The notes under the pieces: model-generated
Told to the model about the DNA's origin: nothing
What the model saw: only the letters and a program-made list of their open reading frames with translations
The model's database searches: none
Translations under genes and position numbers: made by a program
Shown here: piece after piece, positions 2,546 through 56,866 of the stretch
Layout of the letters: each line of letters opens with the position of its first letter
Position numbering within the stretch: the first letter of the stretch is position 1
Assembly (NCBI GenBank): GCA_029834535.1
Contig: JAQMWT010000526.1
Coordinates: forward strand, 310,001 to 374,000
Source: Chrysophaeum taylorii
Lineage: Eukaryota; Sar; Pelagophyceae; Pelagomonadales; Pelagomonadaceae
DNA: 64,000 bases
Direction: 5' to 3'

Positions 2546-3084
2546 TTATGATGGCTCTTCGAGCCTAGGAGTAGCAAACAACAAAAATAATTGGGAGCTC
2601 CGACCCTGCGGGACTTCGCGGCTGTTGAGTCAAGTCACACCGTGTTTCGTGTGCCGCTGTGCCCGTCATCGTGCCAGTCGTACCTAGCCGTTTGCGGTTT
2701 GGGCTTCGCTGGACGCGTCTCCCTCGTTGGAACATGGGTTTGCGTCTTGGCTTCAAGTTCTGTTTCCACAACTTGGGCTGAGCGGGATTTCACTCCCGCC
2801 TTCGTACAATCGGCCTCCTTGCATCGCCCAATCTCCTTCTCCGTTTCTCCATTTTCCCATTTCCCCATTTCTCCATTTCAGTGCATTGGGTTCTCTTCCC
2901 TCTTTCCACCACATGCGTTCAGCCTGCTCTGAGCGGGATCACTCTTCCGCCTGAGTACAAGCGGCGGACTTGGATTGCCTCATAACATGGGTGGTATTAG
3001 CGGTGACGGCGGTCTCGGCGGCCCTGCCTCTGAACCAGTCCCAACTCTCTACCCCAAACACTCGTTCTGGCCCCTTTCCGATCT

Positions 3085-3350: not shown

Positions 3351-3439
3351 AAAATGTACTTGGTAGCTGTTGCCGCATAGGCCTTCCTTTGACGAGCGTA
3401 GGTCATCTACTTTATCTTCTGATCCCTTCGACCTTCAAG

Positions 3440-3560
3440 CACCCACGCGCATCCTCTCCTCTTAGCAGCCGACCTTTAGAGACCCTTCCCACACAACGCA
3501 CCAAAACTTTCAAGCACCCACAAGCACCCCCCCTCTTAGCAGTCGACCTTTATTAGGCTT
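3440..3560 (+). repeat. Diverged LINE 3'-end fragments
   Basis: Two short stretches, ending near 3473 and 3552, carry CAAGCACCCAC...CTCTTAGCAG(C/T)CGACCTTTA. They match the last 40 or so bases of the RLE-type LINE that is better kept at 13633-14864, 27670-27833 and 40244-40489. They are older and do not end in the usual TTTAAAGACA junction. Confidence 0.45.
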
Positions 3561-6449: not shown

Positions 6450-7437
6450 CAAGTGCAGGCCAGTAAGTTCACCTAGTCCCAATCTCTAACCCTAGTAAGT
6501 TCACCTGGTCCCAGTAAGTTCACCTAGTCCCAATCTCTAACCCCAGTAAATTCGGCGTAAACCCAATCTCTAACCCCAGTAAGTTCGACGTAACCCGCAC
6601 CCACTCACCCCACTCGCCTTCGAGCTCGTCGCGCTCACCCCCGCCAATCTAAGCTGCTTTGATCCGCACACGCCGCTAAGCTTTGAGTTTACTCTAAAAG
6701 CCCCAGTAAGTTCACATTTGGTCTCAGTAAGTTCACCTGGTCACTAAGTTCACCTAGTCCCAATCTCTAACCCCAGTAAGTTCACCTGGTTCCAGTAAGT
6801 TCACCTGGTCCCAGTAAGTTAACCTATAGTGCGCGTGTAGACGCCGGGAGGGGGCTTATCGGTATTGCGCAGCACGTGTGGGGTAGGGTGGAGTCGTCGA
6901 CTCAGAAGAGCATATCCTCGGGGTTGCCGATCGACAGAGAGCCACGTAGAGCTGGACGTGGCAGAAGACGGGCTTGGGCGAGAGGACGCCGACCTCGCGG
7001 GGCGTCTGGCCCAGGCTCTTGTTGATCGTTTGGCGTCGGCGGGCCTTAAGGGATACAGGTTGGAGGAGCCTCGGTGACACAACACGATCGATCATGTATC
7101 TGGTACCGTCGCAGTGGCCGTGCGACGGGTCGAGGTTGCGAAGACTTTAAGCTCGCGATCAAAGTCAGCATGCCGTTGGTTGTCAGGGAGTTCAAAACTC
7201 GACTGTTAAGAGCGAGGCGTCGTCTTCCGACCCAACCTAGTCGGCCGAAAAGAACTCCGACGCCTCGTCTCCGGGAAAAAAAGGCCGCGGTCACGCGCGC
7301 GTTGTCAGCATCGACAACATCGTTTCGACGGGGCGTGAGAATGGCGCGCTGAAAGAGCCGCCGCGGGTCGTGGAAACAGTCTGCGAGGTCGTCGTAGCGC
7401 GGGCCTACCTGATCCTTACCCTAAATCGAGGGACAAA

Positions 7438-7599
7438 CACATCCCTCATACCCCACAAACCCACCCACATCCTTCGTGCTCCCCGCACACACACCCCTCT
7501 TAGCAGTCGACATTTAAAGACAAACAACCTCTAAGCAGTCGCCATTTAAAAGACAAACAACACCCCACACATACCCCCTCTTAGCAGTCGACATTCAAA
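7438..7599 (+). mobile_element. Three nested, very short LINE 3' ends
   Basis: Three 3'-terminal pieces of the RLE-type LINE lie side by side: about 7438-7518, 7527-7551 and 7560-7599. Each ends CATTTAAA or CATTCAAA and each is followed by GACAAACA, the microsatellite of the Helitron 5' end. Their 5' ends differ, as expected from separate target-primed insertions that were each cut short. Confidence 0.65.
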
Positions 7600-7604
7600 G
7601 ACAA

Positions 7605-7639
<35 letters not shown>

Positions 7640-7650
7640 GGCAGACAAAC
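7600..7650. repeat. GACA microsatellite in Helitron H1 5' end
   Basis: This is a run of GACAAAC and then GACA units, about 11 in all. It is present at the same place in all five Helitron-like copies and so belongs to the element. It serves as the LINE insertion site in H1 and H2. Confidence 0.8.
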
Positions 7651-7672
7651 ATCTGTCGATTAGTAGTAAGGA

Positions 7673-8927
7673 TGTAGAACCGTAGTACAAGATGCTGAAT
7701 TGACCTCGGAAAGATTTTGTTTGCGCCAGACGCCAGCATCAACGACGCCCCGAAGCTGGCCACATGTGAGCGTCTTCGAATTGACATCATCCGGGTGGAC
7801 GATGTCATCACTCGCGTGATAATATAGCGCGAACAGGCAGGCCACTCGTGGTGGTTCTCGGGCGGACGACTTCGCCTGTGAAGGTCATCTCTAAATAAAT
7901 ATACCGTACACAAATTGAATTTTATTTGTGCGTCCCACGTGACCGATAGCATCTTCCTGTTGTGTAGTGGTTTTCTCAGATACCCGCCCCTCCTGGCCGG
8001 ACCGGGGGCCTCAACAACCCTTCCTCCCAACCCGAACCGCGAGTGAAACCACCACACGCCCGATCTCAGGGCAATACCTCACGCCATCACGAAATCGGAC
8101 AATCAAAAGAGGGTAATATCAAGAAGACAGCAAGAAAGCAATACAAATGCCCGGTTCATTGAATTCAGTGGAAGCGCAGGTGAGGGTGTCAAGATGACAC
8201 CCCCCCCCATATTCGCAAGGTCAGTACCAGGGCAACAACCAGGGTGAGTCATGTGGCAGGCAGGCAAGTCGGGGAATGGGCGTTACTGCCACAGTTGCTG
8301 TCGTGCGCATTATGTCTTAAAGCCACGAGCCGAAAGCTGGCATCGTCGAGGCGTCGATGGCATTCTCGTGGAAAGCTAGACCCCTCCACATTTTCCGCGA
8401 CCACCTACCTTATACGGATGGGTACCAGCGCATCGGCTTTGATCGGACCGCCGCGGAAAGAACCAAGCGCGATCGTGTCGCCGCACCTCCGCGTCACATT
8501 GGATATGGGATTCGGTCGCCCGTCGACTTCGTAGGAGTGCCCACGGGGGGGGGGGGGTAGCAGGGCGATACTGCGCGGAAGGGGCGTTGGAGGAGGCCCG
8601 CGTGGTATTTGAGCGTGAGGTCGCGAGAATCAATAATAAATACACTGTGTGGTACTGGGGGGTTGCAGACGGCAGGTAGAGTTTATGTTCACCACAACAA
8701 CCATCCCGATGAAGAATGATAGGTATGGTTGCGTTCCAGAGAAGGACGGAGTATATAATCCAAAGGCCGATACAGATTACCTGAGCCACATCGACGACCC
8801 TCTCGACACTTCTTATTAGGAGGACCCCAGGAAGGGACCGTAGTCAACAACGTCCCCAAGTCTCGAACGGAATGATGAAATACCCAAACGACAATGTGGT
8901 TGTTCGTCATCGGTCGGGTGTGAGGCG
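7673..8927. other. Intergenic with dispersed repeat C
   Basis: Apart from repeat C (7963-8290) I see no feature. A G run is at about 8546-8559. GTATATAAT near 8751 could be a TATA-like sequence for the gene starting at 8928, though 177 bp is far for a TATA box. Confidence 0.45.
7963..8290 (+). repeat. Dispersed repeat C, copy 1
   Basis: These 328 bp match 63384-63712 in the same orientation at roughly nine bases in ten. Shared blocks include CCGAACCGCG, GTGAAACCACCACACGCC, CACGCCATCACGAAATCGG and GTCATGTGGCAGGCAGGCAA. Neither copy holds a convincing reading frame. The flanks of the two copies differ, so this is a dispersed element and not a large duplication. I cannot name the family. Confidence 0.75.
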
Positions 8928-10709
8928 ATGAAGGACGATTCAAGGTCGTCGTCGTCCGAGGTGACGGCGGAGATCGCCGTGGGCTTGGTCGCGTGGTCGC
9001 TCGCGGCGTACATGGAGCGGTGCGGGAGCTGTCCGGGGCGTTGGAGCTGGTGCGCGACGTTTCTTCGTCGCGCAGCCATCGCGTGCGGCGCGTCGGAGGA
9101 GTGCGTCCGGCGGTGCGCGTCGGCCGCGCAGCGCGTGGCTGCCATTGGGGAGCGCGGTCCCGACGAGGACTTTGTGGTGCTGTGCACGCCGGATCGCGCG
9201 CTGCGCGACAAGGCTGGTCGTCTGGAGGACTCGGAGCGAGCCGAGGTCGCTCGGTTGACGCGACGCGTCGCGCAACTGGCGATCGCCGGAGGGTACTACG
9301 ACGCCCCCGCGCGCGCCGTGCTCAAGTCGGTGCTCGCCGCGAGCCACCTGAGTTGGCGGACGACCGTCGGCCAAGCCGAGCTGGAGGCGCGGTCGTCGTC
9401 GCGGGGCGACGACGACGACGACGGCGAGCCCGTCGAACACCCGCGCGTCGACGAGGTCGACGAGCGGCGACGGGTGCCGTGGATGCGCGTCTCGCTCGCG
9501 GCGGTTGGGGGCGGCGCTATCCTCGCGCTGTCTGGCGGGGTCGCCGCGCCGTCGCTCGCGGCGTCGATCGCCGCGACGGTCTCGCTCGGCGCGGACGGGC
9601 TCGCCTCGTGCATCACGGGAGTCTTTGGGGTCGTAGGCGCCGGGGTCTCGGGGTTCAAGGCGAGGCGCAGGTTCGCACCGGACGGCGACTTCGCCCTCGT
9701 GCCGCTCCGCGCGCCGCCGCGGGGCGTCGCGTCGTTCGTCCTCGTACCTGGCTTCTCGCAGCCCGACCGGGACCCGGCCGACGCCTGGGGCGGCCACAGA
9801 CCGCGGCTCGCGTGTCGCGCGACCGGCGACCTCGTTAAAGAGGACGACTACGAGCTCGTCGAGCCCCCCGAGGACGAGTACGACTGGTGGGACGATCACG
9901 CGCCCCACGGCTCGGCGAGCTTCGTCGTCTGGGAGCAGGCCTCGCTCCAGCGGCTCTACCAGACGATGCGCGAGACGAGCATTAAGATCGAGGCCCAGCA
10001 TCGCGCGGCCCGCGGCCTCATCGACGAGCTCCTCCGGCGATCGGCCCTCGGCGCGGCCAGCCTCCCCCTCGCGCTCCTCGAATACGCCAACGCCCTCGAC
10101 GACCCCTGGGCGATCGCCATCCACCGCTCCAAGGCCGCCGGCCTCAAGCTCGCCGACCAACTCGCCACGCCGGGACACAGACCCGTCACCCTCGTCGGAT
10201 ACTCGATCGGCGCGCGCGTCGTAATGCATTGCCTCGACGAGCTCGCCAAGCGCGCCGAGCAGCACAGCCACGACAAACTCGAGCCCAGCCCCGCGGCCTG
10301 CGTCGTCGAAAACGCAATACTCCTCGGGGCACCCGTCGCCGCCCGACCCACGCGTTGGCGCCGCGCGCGCACCGTCGTCGCCGGACGCCTCGTCAACGGC
10401 TTCTCCCGCCGCGACTGGATGCTCCGCCTCGTCTACCGCTCGAAAGCCTGGTCCTTCGCCGGCGTCGCCGGCGCCCAGGAGGTCCTCGACGCCCCCACCC
10501 TCGAAAACCTCGACCTTACCGACCTCGTCAATGGCCACCTCACCTATCCCCACGTCATGCAGGAAGTCTTCGCGAGGTTGGACCTCGATAACAACGCTCC
10601 CTTCATGCACTCTTCCAAAGCAGCCAACACCACCTCCTCCTTCACCTCGTTCACGGGGGGGGACGCCGACACGATCCTCGTGGCACCAGACGCGCAGCCA
10701 GCGTCTTAA
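8928..10709 (+). CDS. DUF726 / TMCO4-type membrane alpha/beta hydrolase
   Basis: This 593-residue protein belongs to the DUF726 family (human TMCO4, yeast Mil1), which are membrane-linked proteins with a lipase-like fold and mostly unknown substrate. The N-terminal 180 residues are charged. A glycine/alanine-rich hydrophobic region at about 187-243 forms the membrane hairpin typical of the family. The nucleophile elbow GYSIGAR is at about 424-430, inside VTLVGYSIGARVVMHCLDEL, and ENAILLGAPV follows, as expected for the strand after the nucleophile. The ATG at 8928 is the first in frame. There is no intron. A 556-residue antisense frame here is a GC-composition shadow. Confidence 0.8.
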   Translation: MKDDSRSSSSEVTAEIAVGLVAWSLAAYMERCGSCPGRWSWCATFLRRAAIACGASEECVRRCASAAQRVAAIGERGPDEDFVVLCTPDRALRDKAGRLEDSERAEVARLTRRVAQLAIAGGYYDAPARAVLKSVLAASHLSWRTTVGQAELEARSSSRGDDDDDGEPVEHPRVDEVDERRRVPWMRVSLAAVGGGAILALSGGVAAPSLAASIAATVSLGADGLASCITGVFGVVGAGVSGFKARRRFAPDGDFALVPLRAPPRGVASFVLVPGFSQPDRDPADAWGGHRPRLACRATGDLVKEDDYELVEPPEDEYDWWDDHAPHGSASFVVWEQASLQRLYQTMRETSIKIEAQHRAARGLIDELLRRSALGAASLPLALLEYANALDDPWAIAIHRSKAAGLKLADQLATPGHRPVTLVGYSIGARVVMHCLDELAKRAEQHSHDKLEPSPAACVVENAILLGAPVAARPTRWRRARTVVAGRLVNGFSRRDWMLRLVYRSKAWSFAGVAGAQEVLDAPTLENLDLTDLVNGHLTYPHVMQEVFARLDLDNNAPFMHSSKAANTTSSFTSFTGGDADTILVAPDAQPAS

Positions 10710-11716
10710 TTTGTAGTATAACCATCCTTATCTCTATTCTATATACCGCCGCCGCCGCCGCGGCCGCCAACATCAAGAATTTCCATCCATACATAAAGTA
10801 GGCTGGCTCCTAGCTCCGCCGGCACTTGAGGCGGACGCGTCGACCTCTGCGCCGGTTGCGTTGTCGTGCGCTTTCTGCTGTGAGCGTAGGGAGGTTCGCG
10901 TCGTATCTCCGGCAAACAAAAGACGAAGGAGGTTGGTCGATTGGTTGGTTGGTTAACAATTCGCTTCTACTTCTGACCGGCAGAATATAATATCCACCAT
11001 CCTATTCTTCATTCCAGCGATGTCGAGCTTGGTGAGAAGACTGGAATGTCGAAAAGAAAGAAATAAAATAAAGCATGGCAGCTCGTGTCTGACGTTGCGT
11101 CAGACGATTGGGGTGGTCGTCGCGAAAGGCAAAACCACGTCGCTCCCTCGGCTTGAGGGTCGACGACGCAAGCAAGCGCGGAACTGCGAGGGAGCGTCAC
11201 CATCTTGGTGCGCATCAGGCAAAGATCCCAGCTGGGCACCGACCACCTCCCACGGGGACTTCAGACCCCATCATGGTCCCTTTGCATCAAATCAAGGGGG
11301 TTTGTGTGCACATCAATTTGCGTCACATTCACCGGCAGTTAAATCGTTCTAATTAGTATTTTTTTCGCACCACCAAGATCCGAGTGTCGGGAATAACTTA
11401 ACTAAGAGCGCTGAAGAAACCTCTTCATCCTGGCAGCGCGATAGAACGTAGCCATTTTCTTCGTTATGCGCTTGCGAAGAACGCCAATGATAGAGCATTC
11501 GACCCCGAGGGAGGGGGTGCGTGCTGATCGGGAAGTGGAAGATAGTAGTCCGGGGCGCAAAAGTAGTAACCCGAAGTCGCTACGATGATGCTTGCGAATA
11601 TATTTCCTTCCTTCCTTCCTTCCTCCCTTATTAAAAAAAAAAAGGCGCAGGCTGCTCATTCAATACAAGAAGGGGTTGGTGTATTGCAACTGCGCCAAAA
11701 GAGAGCGGAGCCCTCA
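10710..11716. other. Intergenic, no clear gene
   Basis: About 1 kb with a GCC trinucleotide run near 10748, a TTCC run near 11609 and an A run near 11633. A reverse-strand frame ending at 11402 has an 85-residue basic product, but its upper part spans low-complexity sequence and I do not trust it as a gene. Confidence 0.4.
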
Positions 11717-12619
11717 TCATCGATCACCTCCTCCTTCTTCAGAGCAGCCGAAAAAGTCGATGGTGGTCGCGTGATCGTACGGTCGGTCGGCGTCCACGAG
11801 ATTCCACGAGGGGAAATTGGGGTGGTTGACCGAGTCCGGGAGGTGCTGGGTCTCGAGGCACACGGCCGTGCGCCTGTGGAGTCCCGGGAGAAAGTTAGCA
11901 GTATACACTTGGAGGCCCGGCTGGGTCGTCGCGAGCCGCATGGAAACGCGAGGTCCGCGTAAAAACGCTTTGATCATCGCGCCGTCGTCGACGACGAGGC
12001 AGTGATCGAGGTCCCCGACGAGGCGCTTCGGCGCCGAGAAGTCCAAATCTTCCGGGCAGCTCTTGAGATGGCCCGTGGGGACGAGATCATCGTCGGTCTC
12101 GACGAATCTGGACGCGCCCGAGACGCGCAGATAGTGGTCCTCGAGGTCGCCGCCGAGATTGAAGTACGCGTGGTTGGTCATGCTCACCGGCGACGGTGCG
12201 TCGGTCGTGCACTCGAAGCGCATCGTGAGCCGCGCACCCTCGACTGCGTAGGTGACGGCAGCGACCGCGCGACCCGGAAAACCGTCGTCGTCTACGGCGA
12301 GCCGGAGCGAGACGCGCCGAGTCTCGCGCTCGACGATCTCCCAGTCCCGAAAAGACCAGCCCCTATGGCCGCCGTGAAGCAAATGCCGCCCGCTGTTCGG
12401 CTCGAGCTCGTAGCGCGTCTCGCCAACCGAGAACGCGGCGTTGCGGATTCGACCGGCGCACCGCCCGACGCAGCACGCCATGTAGTACGACTCACCCTCG
12501 CGCTCCGGCAACTGCTTGGTCACCTCGATGCCGCGCCACTTGACGCTCACGAGGGTCGCGCCGCGGCACGACACCTGCACCTCGAGCTCCTCCTCGGAAG
12601 ACGTGATGATCACCGCCAT
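11717..12619 (-). CDS. Aldose 1-epimerase (galactose mutarotase)
   Basis: This 300-residue enzyme interconverts the alpha and beta anomers of hexoses such as glucose and galactose. Its length is typical for the family. The acid His is in TNHAYFNL (His150), a second active-site stretch is LLHGGHRGW (His82, His85), and the base Glu is Glu256 in CLETQHLPDS, followed by NHPNFPS, which is strongly conserved. The sugar-binding Arg is expected in GRCAGRIRNAAF (about 52-63). There is no signal peptide, so it is probably cytosolic. The start is the ATG at 12619. The upstream flank is only 25 bp to Helitron-like copy H2, so the promoter lies in or next to the element. Confidence 0.92.
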   Translation of the reverse strand: MAVIITSSEEELEVQVSCRGATLVSVKWRGIEVTKQLPEREGESYYMACCVGRCAGRIRNAAFSVGETRYELEPNSGRHLLHGGHRGWSFRDWEIVERETRRVSLRLAVDDDGFPGRAVAAVTYAVEGARLTMRFECTTDAPSPVSMTNHAYFNLGGDLEDHYLRVSGASRFVETDDDLVPTGHLKSCPEDLDFSAPKRLVGDLDHCLVVDDGAMIKAFLRGPRVSMRLATTQPGLQVYTANFLPGLHRRTAVCLETQHLPDSVNHPNFPSWNLVDADRPYDHATTIDFFGCSEEGGGDR

Positions 12620-13632
12620 CAATAATCAAGGGTTATTTATTTACAAGTGCAGGCCAGTAAGTTCACCTAGTCCCAATCTCTAACCCCAGTAAGTTCACCT
12701 GGTCCCAGTAAGTTTCGTATAAGTTCACCTGGTTAGTAAGTTCACCCAGCTCACACCAACTCCTTTGAGCTCGTCGCTCTCGCCTCCGCCAATCTAAGCT
12801 GCTTTGATCCGCACGCGCCGCCAACCTGTGAGTTTACTCTAAAAACCCTTTACTCTAAAAACCCCAGTTTGTTCACCTGGTCCCAGTTTCACCTGGTCAC
12901 TCAGTTCACCTAGTCCCAATCCCAAACCCCAGTAAGTTCACGTGGTCCCAGTAAGTTCACCTATAGTGCGCGTGTAGACGCCGGGAGGGGGCTTATCGGT
13001 ATTGCGCAGCACGTGTGGGGTAGGGTGGAGTCGTCGACTCAGAAGAGGATATCCTCGGGGTTGCCGATCGACAGGGAGCCACGTAGAGCTGGACGTGGCA
13101 GAAGACGGGTTTGGGCAAAAGGACGCCAACCTCGCGGGGCGTCTGGCCCTGGCTCTTGTTGATCGTTTGGCGTAGGCGGGCCTTAAGGGATACAGGTTGG
13201 AGGAGCCCCGGTGACAACGACACGATCGATCATGTATCTGGTACCGTTGCAGTGGCCGTGCGACGGGTCGAGGTTTCGAAGACCTTAAGCTCGCGATCAA
13301 AGTCAGCATCCCGTTGGTTGTCAGGGAGTTGAAAACTCTACTGTAAAGAGCGAGGCGTCGTCTTCCGACCCAGCCTAGTCAGCCGAAAAGAACTCCGACG
13401 CCTCGTCTCCGGGAAAAAAAAGGCCGCGGTCATGCGCGCGTTGTCAGCATCGACAACATCGTTTCGACGGGGCGTGAGAATGGCGCGCTGAAAGAGCCGC
13501 CGCGGGTCGTGGAAATAGTCTGCGAGGTCGCCGTAGACGGCTTGGAGGATCACTGTCTGGCTCTCGCGCCTACCTGATCCTTACTCTCGCGCCTACCTGA
13601 TCCTTACCCTAAATCGAGGGACAAACAGACAG

Positions 13633-13792
13633 GCCCGTCCTTTCTTCGCCTGCCCCACGCCTCGGCGATGACCCCGACTAGGTCCCGCGTACTTATCTCC
13701 GCCCGTCAGGCACATCCCTCATACCCCACAAACCCACCCACATCCTTCATGCTCCCCACACGCACCCCCCCTCTTAGCAGTCGACATTTAAA
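13633..13792 (+). mobile_element. LINE 3' end, 5'-truncated, nested in Helitron H2
   Basis: This 160-bp piece equals the last coding codons and the 3' UTR of the neighbouring LINE copy. It ends CATTTAAA and is flanked on both sides by GACAAACAGACAG, which is part of the microsatellite target, so the exact target duplication cannot be told from the tract. Confidence 0.7.
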
Positions 13793-13809
13793 GACAAACA
13801 GACAGACAG

Positions 13810-14864
13810 GGCTGAGATGTGTGCCCAGTACTTTGGCTACCCCTCTCCAGCTTGTTCGGGCCTCGTGGGCACTCGCATTCTGGGCACTGACGTCGTTCTC
13901 GACGCTCACGGCAAGGTGCTTCTCACGCAGGCCAACCTTGTCAACCGCGGAGGAGCGCGGACCACCTGGCATGACGGCCAGCTCGACTGCGTCCACGGCA
14001 GCGTCAAAGAGGCCGGCATCCCAGCCCTGTCCGAGGTTTTCGGCATCTTTGCTGACGTCGTCGCCCCTACCATTCGCACGCGCCTCTACGGCCGGTACCG
14101 AGGCAATCTCGCCCGACGTCAAGTCGTCCCAGACATCCTCACCACGCTGGACAACAAGGAGCAACTCTACGACATCAAAACCCTCGCTTGGGGTTCGTTG
14201 TACACCGCCCACGCCCTCCATCCCTCCCACCCGTCGCCTGTCGATCGGCGCGCAGCGCAAGTCCACTCCGAATACCTCGCTCACGCCCGCGGCATCGACG
14301 CCATCATCCCCCAGCCGGGTACAGCACCACCGCCTGGCTTCTTGGGCCCTGTCGAACAGCGGCTACGTAGCTACGGCACCGTCGCCGGCCTCGTCTTCGG
14401 TGCCTTCGGTGAGGCCAGCGCGGCGTGCCACGCTCTCGCCCAAACATGCGCAGAGCGCATCGCTGCGCGAACCTGGGTGACAAGCGGCTGCGCCAACTTC
14501 ACAGAGGCAAAGGCGGCCCAAACTCGCCGCATCTACCGTGAGTGGGGGATCGCCAACGCATTAGGCCGGGCTCGCTGTGCCCTCACCGCCCTCACCCATG
14601 TCGCCGCCTCGGGGAACCCCGCCCAGGCCGCCCGATCCCAGCAGGACGTCACCCTTCGTCGCACATACGTCCGGCGGCAGCATGCGTACGACCTACGGGC
14701 GGGGCCCGTCCTCTCTTCGCCTGCCCCACGCCTCGGCGATGACCCCGACTAGGTTCCGCGTACTTATCTCCGCCCGTCAGGCACATCCCTCATACCCCAC
14801 AAACCCACCCACATCCTTCATGCTCCCCACACACACCCCCCCCTCTTAGCAGTCGACATTTAAA
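13810..14864 (+). mobile_element. LINE (RLE-type non-LTR retrotransposon), 5'-truncated, nested in Helitron H2
   Basis: This is the longest copy of the LINE family in the window. It carries the C-terminal part of the ORF (13817-14752, open upstream to the truncation point) and a 112-bp 3' UTR ending CTCTTAGCAGTCGACATTTA then AA. The 3' end is followed directly by GACAGACAGACAAAC. No reverse transcriptase is left in this copy. It has no poly(A) tail, which fits early-branching site-specific LINEs. Confidence 0.7.
13817..14752 (+). CDS. C-terminal part of LINE ORF with PD-(D/E)xK endonuclease signature
   Basis: The 311-residue open frame is the 3' part of a retrotransposon polyprotein. PD is at residues 105-106 and DIK at 119-121 (context QVVPDI and YDIKTLAWGS). 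This spacing is that of the restriction-enzyme-like endonuclease found at the C-terminus of R2/CRE/NeSL/R4-type LINEs, which nicks a specific DNA target. Upstream lie HDGQLDCVH and a Cys/His-poor stretch, where a zinc finger would be expected. The end, LRRTYVRRQHAYD, is repeated in the truncated copy at 40244. The ATG at 13817 is not the true start: the frame is open to the truncation. The family assignment rests on motifs only. Confidence 0.55.
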   Translation: MCAQYFGYPSPACSGLVGTRILGTDVVLDAHGKVLLTQANLVNRGGARTTWHDGQLDCVHGSVKEAGIPALSEVFGIFADVVAPTIRTRLYGRYRGNLARRQVVPDILTTLDNKEQLYDIKTLAWGSLYTAHALHPSHPSPVDRRAAQVHSEYLAHARGIDAIIPQPGTAPPPGFLGPVEQRLRSYGTVAGLVFGAFGEASAACHALAQTCAERIAARTWVTSGCANFTEAKAAQTRRIYREWGIANALGRARCALTALTHVAASGNPAQAARSQQDVTLRRTYVRRQHAYDLRAGPVLSSPAPRLGDDPD

Positions 14865-14967
14865 GACAGACAGACAAACAGACAAACATCTGTCGATTAG
14901 TAGTTAAGATTAGTTTAGCATTTTATAGGACGAAACGAATCTTTTTTTTTTTGTGAAAGCGTTGAAA

Positions 14968-21601: not shown

Positions 21602-22611
21602 CAAGTGCAGGCCAGTAAGTTCGCCAGTAAGTTCACCTAGTCCCAATCTCTAACCCCAGTAAGTTCACCTGGCCCCAGTAAGTTCACCTAGTCCCAATCT
21701 CTAACCCCAGTAAGTTCGGTGTAAGCCCACTCGTGCTCACACCCACTCACCCCACTCTCCTTCGAGCTCGTCGCTCTCACCTCCGCCAATCTAAGCTGCT
21801 TTGATCCGTACACGCCGCTCGCCTTTGCGTTCACTCTAAAAACCCCTGTAAGTTCACTTGGTCTCAGTAAGTTCACCTGGTCACTCAGCTCACCTAGTCC
21901 CAATCTCCAACCCCAGTAAGTTCACCTGGTCCCAGTAAGTTCACCTACAGTGCGCGTGTAGACGCCGTGAGGGGGCTTATCGGTATTGCGCAGCACGTGT
22001 GGGGTAGGGTGGAGTCGTCGACTCAGAAGACGATATCCTCGGGGTTGCCGATCGACAGAGAGCCACGTAGAGCTGGACGTGGCAGAAGACGGGCTTGGGC
22101 AAGAGGACGCCGACCTCGCGGGGCGTCTGCCTCTGGCTCTTGTTGATCGTTTGGCGTCGGTGGGGCTTGAGGGATACAGGTTGGAGGAGCCTCGGTGACA
22201 ACGACACTATCGATCATGTATCTGGTACCGTTGCAGTGGCCGTGCGACGGGTCGAGGTTGCGAAGACTTTAAGCTCGCGATCAAAGTCAGCATGCCGTTG
22301 GTTGTCAGGGAGTTGAAAACTCTACTGTAAAGAGCGAGGCGTCGTCTTCCGACCCAGCCTAGTCAGCCGAAAAGAACTCCGACGCCTCGTCTCCGGGAAT
22401 AAAAGGCCGCAGTCATGCGCGCGTTGTCAGCATCGACAACATCGTTTCGACGGGGCGTGAGAATGGCGCGCTGGCTAAAAGAGCCGCCGCGGGTCGTGGA
22501 AATAGTCTGCGAGGTCGCCGTAGACGGCTTGGAGGATCACTGTCTGACTCGCGTGCCTACCTGATCCTTACTCTCGCGCCTACCTGATCCTTACCCTAAA
22601 TCGAGGGACAA

Positions 22612-22646
<35 letters not shown>

Positions 22647-22671
22647 AACATCTGTCGATTAGTAGTTAGGA
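21602..22671 (-). mobile_element. Helitron-like element, copy H3 (no nested LINE)
   Basis: This is the cleanest reverse-strand copy. It starts TCCTAACTACTAATCGAC at 22671 and ends CCTGCACTTG at 21602. Its uninterrupted GACA/GACAAA tract (about 22612-22660) shows the state of the landing site before LINE insertion. The decayed helicase segment is at about 22010-22530 and the promoter-like block at about 21764-21842. It is inserted into the TGACCAAACTT array, because copies of that motif lie on both sides. Confidence 0.75.
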
Positions 22672-27452: not shown

Positions 27453-28027
27453 GCGTCAGGGGAGCCCGCGAAGGTGCCGGAGAACACGAGTGGTGGTTTC
27501 ACCACGCGAGTCGGCGCGCCAAATGACGTAGGAAGTTGCATAAATCCCAAGCTTTCTTTTTTTTTGGGGGAGTAGTAGTACTACCTACCTACCTACCTAG
27601 TACCGGGCACCGTTGTGAAATAAATATCCACGGGGGCTATAGAAATATTTTGGGGACAGACACACCCGGGCGGGGCCCGTCCTCTCTTCGCCTGCCCCAC
27701 GCCTCGGCGATGACCCCGACTAGGTCCCGCGTACTTATCTCCGCCCGTCAGGCACATCCCTCATACCCCACAAACCCACCCACATCCTTCATGCTCCTCA
27801 CACACACCCCCCTCTTAGCAGTCGACATTTAAAGACAGACTCACCCGGCCTTTTTTTTCTTCCTCGTCGTGTCGGCCATCCGCCCCAGCACTCGGAGGCA
27901 GGCAGGCAGGCAGGGAGGCATGCCATTCATTCATTTCATGGCACAAAATAAAATTTATCTTCTCGCAACAGGCGGTCTGTGTCTGTGTCTGCCGACCGAG
28001 GTATTAATTAATTAATTAAAATAATAA
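27453..28027. other. Intergenic with LINE fragment
   Basis: Holds the LINE 3' end at 27670-27833, a TACC run near 27583, a GGCA run near 27897 and AT-rich sequence before the next gene. No gene is seen. Confidence 0.5.
27655..27848 (+). mobile_element. LINE 3' end with target-site duplication
   Basis: A 5'-truncated LINE copy (27670-27833) ends CATTTAAA. It is flanked by GACAGACACACCCGG (27655-27669) and GACAGACTCACCCGG (27834-27848), a 15-bp duplication with one mismatch. The target begins GACAGAC, like the microsatellite in the Helitrons, but this site is outside any Helitron copy. Confidence 0.85.
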
Positions 28028-40230: not shown

Positions 40231-40502
40231 AGACACACCAGCCCCACCCAGGCCACCCGATCCCAGCAGGACGTCACCCTTCGTCACACATACGTCCGGC
40301 GGCAGCACGCGTACGACCTACGGGCGGGGCCCGTCCTCTCTTCGCCTGCCCCACGCCTCGGCGATGACCCCGACTAGGTCCCGCGTACTTATCTCCGCCC
40401 GTCAGGCACATCCCTCATACCCCACAAACCCACCCACATCCTTCATGCTCCCCACACACACCCCCCCCCTCTTAGCAGTCGACATTTAAAGACACACCAG
40501 CC
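40231..40502 (+). mobile_element. LINE 3' end with target-site duplication
   Basis: A 5'-truncated LINE copy (40244-40489) covers the last 44 or so ORF codons (from the segment ARSQQDVTLRRTYVRRQ on, with a Thr for Arg change) and the 3' UTR ending CATTTAA. It is flanked by the perfect 13-bp repeat AGACACACCAGCC at 40231-40243 and 40490-40502. Once more the target starts with GACA. Confidence 0.85.
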
Positions 40503-40544: not shown

Positions 40545-40913
40545 ATGAGCTCCACGCAAGTGTCCGACAAGCCATTCGAGAATGGCGCACAACGTATTGC
40601 GGATCGCCTCGGCGACGTCGGTGAGAAACTCGGCAAGCGCGGGGAAAACGTTGCCAAGACTGGCCTGACCAACGTCGCCGTCGGCCTCGAGACTGGCCTG
40701 ACCAACGTCGCCATCGGCCTCGCCATCATTGGCCTCACCATTTTCGCGAGCTCCATCATCAACTCTCGCGCGCGCGACGGTCGCGACGACGCTCACGAAC
40801 GTTTCCGACCGAACCAGCGACGCTCCGAAAGCGTCCGCGCCTTCATCAAAAGACGAGGCGACCTTGCCGTCGCCGCGCGCACCGCACCTCGGCCCTCCTT
40901 CCTCCGTTGCTAG
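40545..40913 (+). CDS. Small hypothetical protein with duplicated Gly/Leu motif
   Basis: A 122-residue frame that starts directly after the LINE insertion. It reads as an amphipathic N-terminus (RIADRLGDVGEKLGKRGENV), a duplicated unit TGLTNVAVGLE / TGLTNVAIGLA, a hydrophobic helix (VAIGLAIIGLTIFASSII) and a basic tail. Third positions are G/C-rich as in real genes here, and the antisense frame is worse. It has no known family. It may be a fragment whose 5' part was displaced by the LINE. Confidence 0.35.
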   Translation: MSSTQVSDKPFENGAQRIADRLGDVGEKLGKRGENVAKTGLTNVAVGLETGLTNVAIGLAIIGLTIFASSIINSRARDGRDDAHERFRPNQRRSESVRAFIKRRGDLAVAARTAPRPSFLRC

Positions 40914-54805: not shown

Positions 54806-54826
54806 TCCTAACTACTAATCGACAGA

Positions 54827-54865
<39 letters not shown>

Positions 54866-55834
54866 TTGTCTGTTTGTCCCTCGATTTAGGGTAAGGATCA
54901 GGTAGGCGCGAGAGTAAGGATCAGGTAGGCGCGAGAGCCAGACAGTGAGCCTCCAAGCCGTCTACGGCGACCTCGCAGACTATTTCCACGACCCGCGGCG
55001 GCTCTTTCAGCGCGCCATTCTCTCGCCCCGTCGAAACGATGTTGTCGATGCTGACAACGTGCGCATGACCTCGGCCTTTTTTCCCCGGAGACGAGGCGTC
55101 GGAGTTCTTTTCGGCCGACTAGGTTGGGTCGGAAGACGACGCCTCGCTCTTTACAGTAGAGTTTTGAACTCCCTGACGACCAACGGCATGCTGACTTTGA
55201 TCGCGAGCTTAATGTCTTCGCAACCTCGACCCGTCGCACGGCCACTGCAACGGTACCAGATACGTGATCGATCGTGTCGTTGTCACCGAGGCTCCTCCAA
55301 CCTGTATCCCTTAAGGCCCGCCGACGCCAAACGATCAACAAGAGCCAGGGCCAGACGCCCCGCGAGGTCGGCGTCCTTTTGCCCAAACCCGTCTTCTGCC
55401 ACGTCCAGCTCTACGTGGCTCCCTGTCGATCGGCAACCCCGAGGATATAATCATCTGGGTCGACGACTCCACCCTACCCCACACGTGCTGCGCAATACCG
55501 ATAAGCCCCCTCCCGGCGTCTACACGCGCACTATAGGTGAACTTACTGGGACCAGGTGAACTTACTGGAACCAGGTGAACTTACTGGGGTTGGAGATTGG
55601 AACTAGGTGAACTTAGTGACCAGGTGAACTTACTGAGACCAAGTGAGCTTACTGGGGTTTTTAGAGTAAACGCAAAGGATAGCGACGTGTGCGGATAAAA
55701 GCAGCTTAGATTGGCGGGGTGAGAGCGACGAGCTCAAAGGAGAGTGGGGTGAGTGGATGTGAGCACGAGTGGGTTTACGCCGAACTTACTGGGGTTAGAG
55801 ATTGGGACTAGGTGAACTTACTGGCCTGCACTTG
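54806..55834 (+). mobile_element. Helitron-like element, copy H4
   Basis: A + strand copy. It starts TCCTAACTACTAATCGACAG at 54806 and ends GGCCTGCACTTG at 55834. Order of parts: GACA tract read as GTCT/GTTT (54828-54887), a short repeat of TAAGGATCAGGTAGGCGCGA, decayed PIF1-type helicase C-terminus (about 54943-55450; LQAVYGDLADYFHDPRR, RAIL-P, NDVVDADN, NSLTTNGM), minisatellite, promoter-like block (55656-55734), minisatellite. It ends exactly where H5 begins. Confidence 0.75.
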
Positions 55835-56866
55835 TCCTAACTACTAATCGACAGATGTTTGTCTGTCTGTTTGTTTGTCCCTCGATTTAGGGTAAGGATC
55901 AGGTAGGCCCGAGAGTAAGGATCAGGTAGGCGCGAGAGCCAGACAGTGATCCTCCAAGCCGTCTACGGCGACCTCGCAGACTATTTCCACGACCCGCGGC
56001 GGCTCTTTCAGCGCGCCATTCTCACGCCCCGTCGAAACGATGTTGTCGATGCTGACAACGCGCGCATGACCGCGGCCTTTTTTTCCCGGAGACGAGGCGT
56101 CGGAGTTCTTTTCGGCTGACTAGGCTGGGTCGGAAGACGACGCCTCGCTCTTTACAGTAGAGTTTTCAACTCCCTGACAACCAACGGGATGCTGACTTTG
56201 AGCGCGAGCTTAAGGTCTTCGAAACCTCGACCCGTCGCACGGCCACTGCAACGGTACCAGATACATGATCGATCGTGTCGTTGTCACCGAGGCTCCTCCA
56301 CCGAGGCTCCTCCAACCTGTATCCCTTAAGGCCCGCCTACGCCAAACGATCAACAAGAGCCAGGGCCAGACGCCCCGCGAGGTCGGCGTCCTCTTGGCGA
56401 AGCCCGTCTTCTGCCACGTCTAGCTCTACGTGGCTCTCTGTCTATCGGCGACCCCGAGGATATCCTCTTCTTGGTCGACGACTCCACCCTACTCCACACG
56501 TGCTGCGCAATACCGATAAGCCCCCTCCCAGCGTCTACACGCGCACTATAGGTTAACTTACTGGGACCAGGTGAACTTACTGGGGTTTGAGATTGGGACT
56601 AGGTGAACTGAGTGACCAGGTGAAACTGGGACCAGGTGAACATACTGGGGTTTTTAGAGTAAAGTTTTTAGAGTAAACTCAAAGGTTGGCGGCGCGTGCG
56701 GATCAAAGCAGCTTAGATTGGCGGAGGCGAGAGCGACGAGCTCAAAGGAGTTGGTGTGAGCTAGGTGAACTTACTGACCAGGTGGACTTATACGAAACTT
56801 ACTGGGACCACGTGAACTTACTGGGGTTAGAGATTGGGAGTAGGTGAACTTACTGGCCTGCACTTG
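55835..56866 (+). mobile_element. Helitron-like element, copy H5, abutting H4
   Basis: Same order of parts as H4. It starts TCCTAACTACTAATCGACAG at 55835, immediately after the CTTG end of H4, and ends CCTGCACTTG at 56866, followed by T. It keeps clear helicase strings (DNARMTAAFF, INKSQGQTPREVGVLL) in different frames. H4 and H5 are about nine-tenths identical but differ in many single bases and a few indels, so they are not a very recent copy of each other. Confidence 0.75.

Follow-up and report, generated by a model that had tools for sequence, protein, structure and literature searches.

Can one mobile element spread the landing site of another? The question is raised by a 64,000-nucleotide stretch of the genome of the pelagophyte Chrysophaeum taylorii (C526:310001-374000, where C526 is contig JAQMWT010000526.1; hereafter the window), taken from an assembly of 70.8 Mb in 697 contigs, in which copies of a long interspersed nuclear element (LINE) end next to GACA, several of them within the GACA tract of Helitron-type elements. 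From the pattern counts, which covered the whole assembly, and from lists of places, which hold about the first 100 among the matches listed, we consider it very probable that a young and numerous LINE nicks DNA just 5' of GACA, mainly at the edge of the Helitron-borne tract, and re-creates this edge each time it inserts.

GACA belongs mainly to the target

A sequence-only reading of the window had named seven LINE 3' junctions (7519, 7552, 7600, 13793, 14865, 27834 and 40491), and all of them are present and followed by GACA. Six have TTTAAA or TTCAAA directly before the GACA, and the junction at 7552 has TTTAAAA. Genome-wide, the 20-base 3' end of the LINE, CTTAGCAGTCGACATTTAAA, occurs in 2265 exact copies (none for the same sequence read backwards), of which 2011 run directly into GACA and 1033 into three RACA units; GACA would be expected after ~0.4% of the ends, by our own estimate from the base composition of the window (60.8% G+C). 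We also sampled junctions from 60 loci and the window, the first 30 loci (L001-L030) being picked by similarity to a long 3' end and the others (L031-L060) by their place in the list, so that the choice was independent of the bases after the LINE. Counting junctions with identical 120 surrounding bases as one, this gave 111 distinct junctions, with 102 GACA, two AACA, two GACG and one each of GGCA, ACAC, GACC, AGGC and AGAC. The proposed preference for GACA is thus kept in large samples.

The same reading had left room for GACA being the LINE's own 3' end, and here the target-site duplications (TSDs) are informative. The 5' side was readable in 98 copies, and 73 of these have a TSD of at least 5 bp, some bases of which are possibly shared with the LINE start. 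The TSDs measure 7-18 bp in 70 of the 73 cases and are free of mismatches in 63. Their 5' copies begin with GACA in 69 cases and with GACG, GCCA, GATA or AGAC in the others. Since GACA is duplicated on the 5' side of the insertions, it is part of the target and not simply LINE sequence. Copies outside Helitrons agree with this, both in the window, where the copy at 27667..27833 (plus strand) has the TSD GACAGACWCACCCGG (one mismatch, last bases common to the LINE start) and the copy at 40242..40490 (plus strand) has GACACACCAGCC (GACACACCAG without the bases common to the LINE start), and elsewhere, with GACATATA in L018 and GACGTATGG in L020. A long copy, L080, has the TSD GACAGAAG, as read by eye.

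The tract edge and its carrier

Most tracts are carried by the Helitron. Its exact 5'-end mark was found 2543 times genome-wide, and four RACA units followed by C or T occur at 3025 places, as against 169 for the mirror image of that pattern, which serves as a coarse control for ordinary repeats. Assuming ~1 kb per copy, we estimate that only a few per cent of the genome consists of Helitrons. On contigs C1-C7, which served for the distance, mark and edge counts (exact matches, among the matches listed), an exact join to a Helitron mark is seen at 65 of 83 tract ends. LINE ends on these contigs lie within 70 bp of a same-strand Helitron mark in 23 of 70 cases, rising to 41 when chains of LINE copies are followed, and two are near a mark on the opposite strand; conversely, an exact LINE end is found no more than 70 bp away from 24 of 78 marks. 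Among the 59 LINE clusters of the loci and the window, about 48 lie in Helitrons, 44 by an automatic flank search and four by eye (L015, L022, L043 and L003:2732). The Helitron thus holds most of the clusters, mostly in its tract, without being the exclusive landing site. As the Helitron disperses its tracts through the genome, the target of the LINE is spread with them, and the earlier claim to this effect is borne out in that most of the observed tracts and landing sites belong to this host.

Within the window, all six tracts found with at least four RACA units are inside Helitrons, and two of these carry LINE copies in their tracts, three in H1 and two in H2 as the sequence-only reading had it. 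H1 is a non-autonomous element on the minus strand (6450..7672, 5' end at 7672, 3' end ..CACTTG at 6450), and its tract (7432..7651, edge CGAGG^GACA at 7431/7432) is broken up by three plus-strand copies. The 5'-truncated copy 1 (7438..7518) has the TSD GACAAACA, the final two bases of which are common to the LINE start, copy 2 (7528..7551) inserted at the 3' edge left by copy 1, and for copy 3 (7570..7599, 5' boundary uncertain) a TSD was looked for and none was found. In H2 (12644..14909, minus strand, 5' end at 14909), copy 1 (13633..13792) lies between the tract edge with the 5' TSD copy GACAAACAGACAG (13620..13632) and the other TSD copy (13793-13805); downstream of it follow copy 2 (13809..14864), which holds ~1 kb of C-terminal open reading frame and 3' untranslated region, and a leftover (RACA)6 tract (14865..14888), all on the plus strand. 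The tracts of the other three elements are empty and uninterrupted: H3 (21602..22671, minus strand, tract 22607-22650), H4 (54806..55834, plus strand) and H5 (55835..56866, plus strand), which follows directly head-to-tail behind H4. Genes in the window include those for a kinesin, a protein kinase and LETM1.

Where in the tract the LINE lands was read from the base before the TSD. Among the 73 insertions, the LINE's own 3' edge accounts for 31 and the Helitron edge for 21 (19 assigned by rule and two, L046 and L056, by eye); a further 11 fall within a tract and 10 at other sites. One of the 11, L044:301, follows a LINE end in TTTACA and is a LINE edge missed by the rule. Leaving the last ten aside, 52 of 63 insertions are at an edge (p ~1e-36 against an assumed 1 in 8 per random unit, if independent). 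On C1-C7, LINE end and Helitron end mark are separated by a distance divisible by four in 22 of 23 cases (binomial p ~1e-12 if the cases are independent). Exact edges, CTAAATCGAGGGACA, number 2163 genome-wide, and 1406 of them continue through five or more units. On C1-C7, 41 of 58 edges are of this length, and in none of these 41 does an exact LINE end intervene between the edge and the following Helitron mark, whereas one does so for 11 of the 17 interrupted edges, indicating that LINEs seldom land inside long tracts. Insertion is therefore mostly at the tract edge CGAGG^GACA, in phase, and seldom inside, and random placement within the tract is ruled out by the edge and inside counts together with the lengths of the empty tracts. 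The earlier picture of a LINE that lands in the Helitron tract is accordingly to be amended: the tract is used, but mostly at its edge and rarely inside, and single GACA sites outside Helitrons are used as well, with edge and single sites outranking the repeat interior.

The edge is re-made at the 3' end of each LINE copy (TTTAAA^GACA), which accounts for the clusters with several copies. Two to seven copies are held by 24 of the 59 clusters, an upper bound for the number of landings, and the LINE-made edge is used at least as often as the Helitron edge.

Several observations weigh against this account. GACA does not follow 254 of the 2265 LINE ends, a TSD of 5 bp or longer is lacking in 25 of the 98 readable copies, and the target is unreadable for some copies (L004, L023). 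On C1-C7, 29 of 70 exact LINE ends could not be linked to an exact Helitron mark, not even by way of chains, and for 6 of the 17 interrupted edges the next mark is reached without meeting an exact LINE end. Ten clusters lie at other places or have flanks that went unrecognised (L004, L006:1846, L018, L020, L023, L027, L059 and window 3432, 27667 and 40242), and one more runs off its locus. Finally, L002 contains a tandem duplication, and the array C6:90792-91587 likewise appears to, by its spacing; because some clusters are tandem duplications, the copy counts and the p-values, which assume independent insertions, overstate the number of independent events.

One of these clusters, at window 3432-3554, has two diverged LINE 3' ends (TTTAGA then GACC, TTTATT then AGGC) that break the GACA rule and possibly represent an older or a sister subfamily.

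A proposed mechanism and its rivals

In the mechanism that we propose, the LINE would nick the first strand just 5' of GACA and prime reverse transcription at the nick, leaving behind the observed duplications, mostly of 7-18 bp and beginning with GACA. The run of ~6-13 RACA units close to the 5' terminus of the rolling-circle element would be its main substrate, entered at the invariant edge CGAGG^GACA. A nick at this position would leave the tract on the downstream side of the inserted copy, whose TTTAAA^GACA junction is a new edge; further copies could land on this edge, so that the tract of a Helitron would not be exhausted. The RNA of the LINE probably carries a GACA-like 3' tail, the product of read-through at the donor site, and this tail would pair with the nicked strand. 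Four sites point to such a tail. In L022 and L043, the 5' side reads GCCAGACA and the 3' junction GACAGACA or AACAGACA (L043 by eye), which is readable either as a change from GCCA to RACA or as a surplus unit. GCCA, GATA and GCCA on the 5' sides of L022, L027 and L043 stand opposite GACA, GACA and AACA at the 3' junctions. In L059, ..AATCACCC is found before and GACACCC after the copy (by eye). A LINE RNA tail with GACA-like bases is suggested as the simplest account of these four sites, later mutation being possible at single ones.

The same sites lend some weight to a reading in which the RNA leads the choice, the (GACA)n tail of the transcript annealing to any nicked strand that ends in TGTC and the endonuclease being loose. 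L059 and L027 have a GACA junction at a target lacking GACA, L022 and L043 differ between their two sides, and annealing to a repeat would account for the 4-nt register. However, the target and the 3' junction of L020 are both GACG, which a tail has not overwritten, and annealing alone leaves the choice of the first unit and the avoided interior unexplained; we regard this reading as rather unlikely. Much less credible still is that the LINE recognises the Helitron itself, through sequence beside CGAGG, with GACA incidental. The repeated use of CGAGG^GACA and the share of clusters in Helitrons speak for it, yet landings on the LINE's own 3' end are at least as many as those on the Helitron edge, and unrelated bases precede GACA or GACG at L018, L020, 27667 and 40242, so that the Helitron flank as the recognition site is largely ruled out by the use of other flanks.

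It is similarly improbable that the LINE itself terminates in GACA and that the pattern arose by unequal exchange within tracts, with no targeting. GACA is common to 102 of the 111 junctions and some arrays do look like tandem duplications, but 69 of the 73 5' target copies begin with GACA, including the single sites outside Helitrons at 27667, 40242 and L018, which rules out GACA as LINE sequence only. Moreover, truncation points differ between many neighbouring copies, and L020 ends in GACG.

The two elements and related systems

The inserting element has the hallmarks of a LINE, with many truncation points, one constant 3' end and TSDs of variable length. The longer matches among the sampled copies are mostly ~96-100% identical to the window copy, indicating a young family; short pieces go down to ~83%. 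The longest frame seen is 1396 aa, at C526. In the L080 frame, Pfam places RVT_1 at residues 426-628 with an E value of 0.031, below the cut-off, and QGDP and GMDDG can be read by eye. The C-terminal part, open in the window at 13817..14752 (plus strand), contains a VPD..DIK motif, seen by eye; a PD-(D/E)xK motif C-terminal to the reverse transcriptase is characteristic of a restriction-like endonuclease (RLE). Pfam has no family for this part, its AlphaFold model is too poor to use (pLDDT 38.3), and a PDB sequence search with the LINE protein gave no relative at E <= 10. No family of apurinic/apyrimidinic endonucleases (APE) is listed by Pfam for the L080 frame at E <= 10, in a search of the frame without its first residues and with filters that drop most weak matches. 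The motif suggests a putative LINE of the RLE type. A scan of viral contigs for relatives found none. Upstream of the long frame, L081 has HHACVGQW..CPNC in another frame, by eye a possible RING-like zinc finger. In L022 and L043, the LINE also uses a second GACA-like site, in the Helitron body and on the other strand (GAGCCAGACAGTGATCC).

The host has ends that mostly read TCYT(A/T)ACTACTAATCGACAGATG and ..CTTACTGGCCTGCACTTG. At C105:48031-54811, these 5' and 3' ends enclose a Rep domain (PF14214, E 7.6e-59) and a PIF1 helicase (E 3e-45, split over two frames), which makes the host a rolling-circle element. PF14214 matches 40 times genome-wide; the autonomous C105 element is the one copy examined in full, and in its own tract, too, a short LINE copy is present. 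All five window elements begin with TCCT or TCTT, a Helitron-like 5' TC. Their 3' end is CACTTG instead of the CTRR and hairpin of canonical Helitron1, and no hairpin was found in the last 60 nt of H4 and H5, which fold no better than shuffles (z ~ +1). Nor do they show the T-T insertion of DINE-1/Helentron elements, the bases before TC being g, g, g, a and a and the 3' flanks starting with T. With 3' CTTG and no hairpin found, the host is not a canonical Helitron1, and we name it rolling-circle or Helitron-type by its proteins. An Rfam scan of the window at gathering scores gave no match. The tract begins ~20 nt from the 5' terminus as GTYT units, and empty tracts are 24-52 nt long (n=16).

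Further features of the host were noted. At window 54806-54870, the 5' terminus (GACAGA) can pair with its own tract (TCTGTC) in a hairpin (z = -2.0), which recalls the partial inverted repeat of DINE-1. Head-to-tail arrays like that of H4 and H5, mostly with ~1-kb spacing, are found at C20:32065-47044, C1:6188-14913, C5:921-4033 and C11:26711-33766. Nested in LINE or Helitron copies is an element of 257-261 bp bounded by terminal inverted repeats near AGGGTCGGATAAGAAA (L016:1935-2191, L036:1164-1424, L054:1561-1817 and L060:1242-1498), which looks like a miniature inverted-repeat transposable element; one such end is matched twice in the window, at 40911 and 41351 (0-based), with at most two mismatches.

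Among known systems, the Tx1L and Tx2L LINEs of Xenopus, which have an APE endonuclease, target the Tx1D and Tx2D elements. As in the present case, the main target is another transposon family, which supplies the sites. Tx1L and Tx2L differ from the LINE studied here in their APE and in a site within another kind of DNA element; here, the target is the edge of a repeat in a rolling-circle element, re-created with each insertion and also used outside that element. Waldo and Dong are microsatellite-specific LINEs. The passages seen of a published account state that LINE targets include transposons and microsatellites, that most RLE LINEs are target-specific, and that some HERO families and Togen, with (TG)n, are specific for microsatellites (PMC4640811); other transposable elements are also named among LINE targets in part of a further source (PMC8869645). 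HERO, Togen, Waldo and Dong share with our LINE the in-register insertion into a short tandem repeat, whereas our LINE prefers the first unit, and its repeat is largely confined to one mobile element.

On the host side, DINE-1 and Helitron2 elements carry GTCY-rich microsatellites, according to passages of three papers (PMC2374699, PMC3630058, PMC4067079). They resemble the present host as rolling-circle types with a variable GTCY-like run in the 5' part, the host having GTYT units ~20 nt from its 5' end. DINE-1 is described in such passages as inserting preferably between T and T, unlike the window elements with g or a before and T after them, 3' CTTG and no 3' hairpin found. The passages on the DINE-1 microsatellite mention no LINE that uses it. 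The sequence-only reading knew of no Helitron that serves a LINE as a landing pad, and we found no described LINE on a Helitron-borne repeat among the matches listed in the titles, abstracts and passages of open-licence literature. LINEs that target transposable elements or microsatellites and Helitrons that bear GTCY repeats are known separately, and no report of their combination was found in that literature.

It is conceivable, and we put it forward tentatively, that the two elements, unrelated to each other, form a lasting system in which the Helitron sows edges and the LINE renews the edge while cutting the Helitron 5' terminus off from its body, perhaps sterilising its carrier as a hyperparasite. 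Two LINE-Helitron junctions were checked for spreading of LINE-loaded Helitrons and each occurs once in the genome, which gives such spreading no support and is what would be expected if loaded Helitrons had stopped moving; two are too few to show sterility. If such a system exists, the LINE would have an inexhaustible site and would perhaps sterilise the Helitron that carries it. With thousands of copies, one transposon making the niche of another becomes a measurable intragenomic ecology. The edge preference and the self-renewing site predict how a target-specific LINE reads a repeat, and the system makes it possible to ask if such a LINE is harmful to its carrier, tolerant of it or dependent on it.

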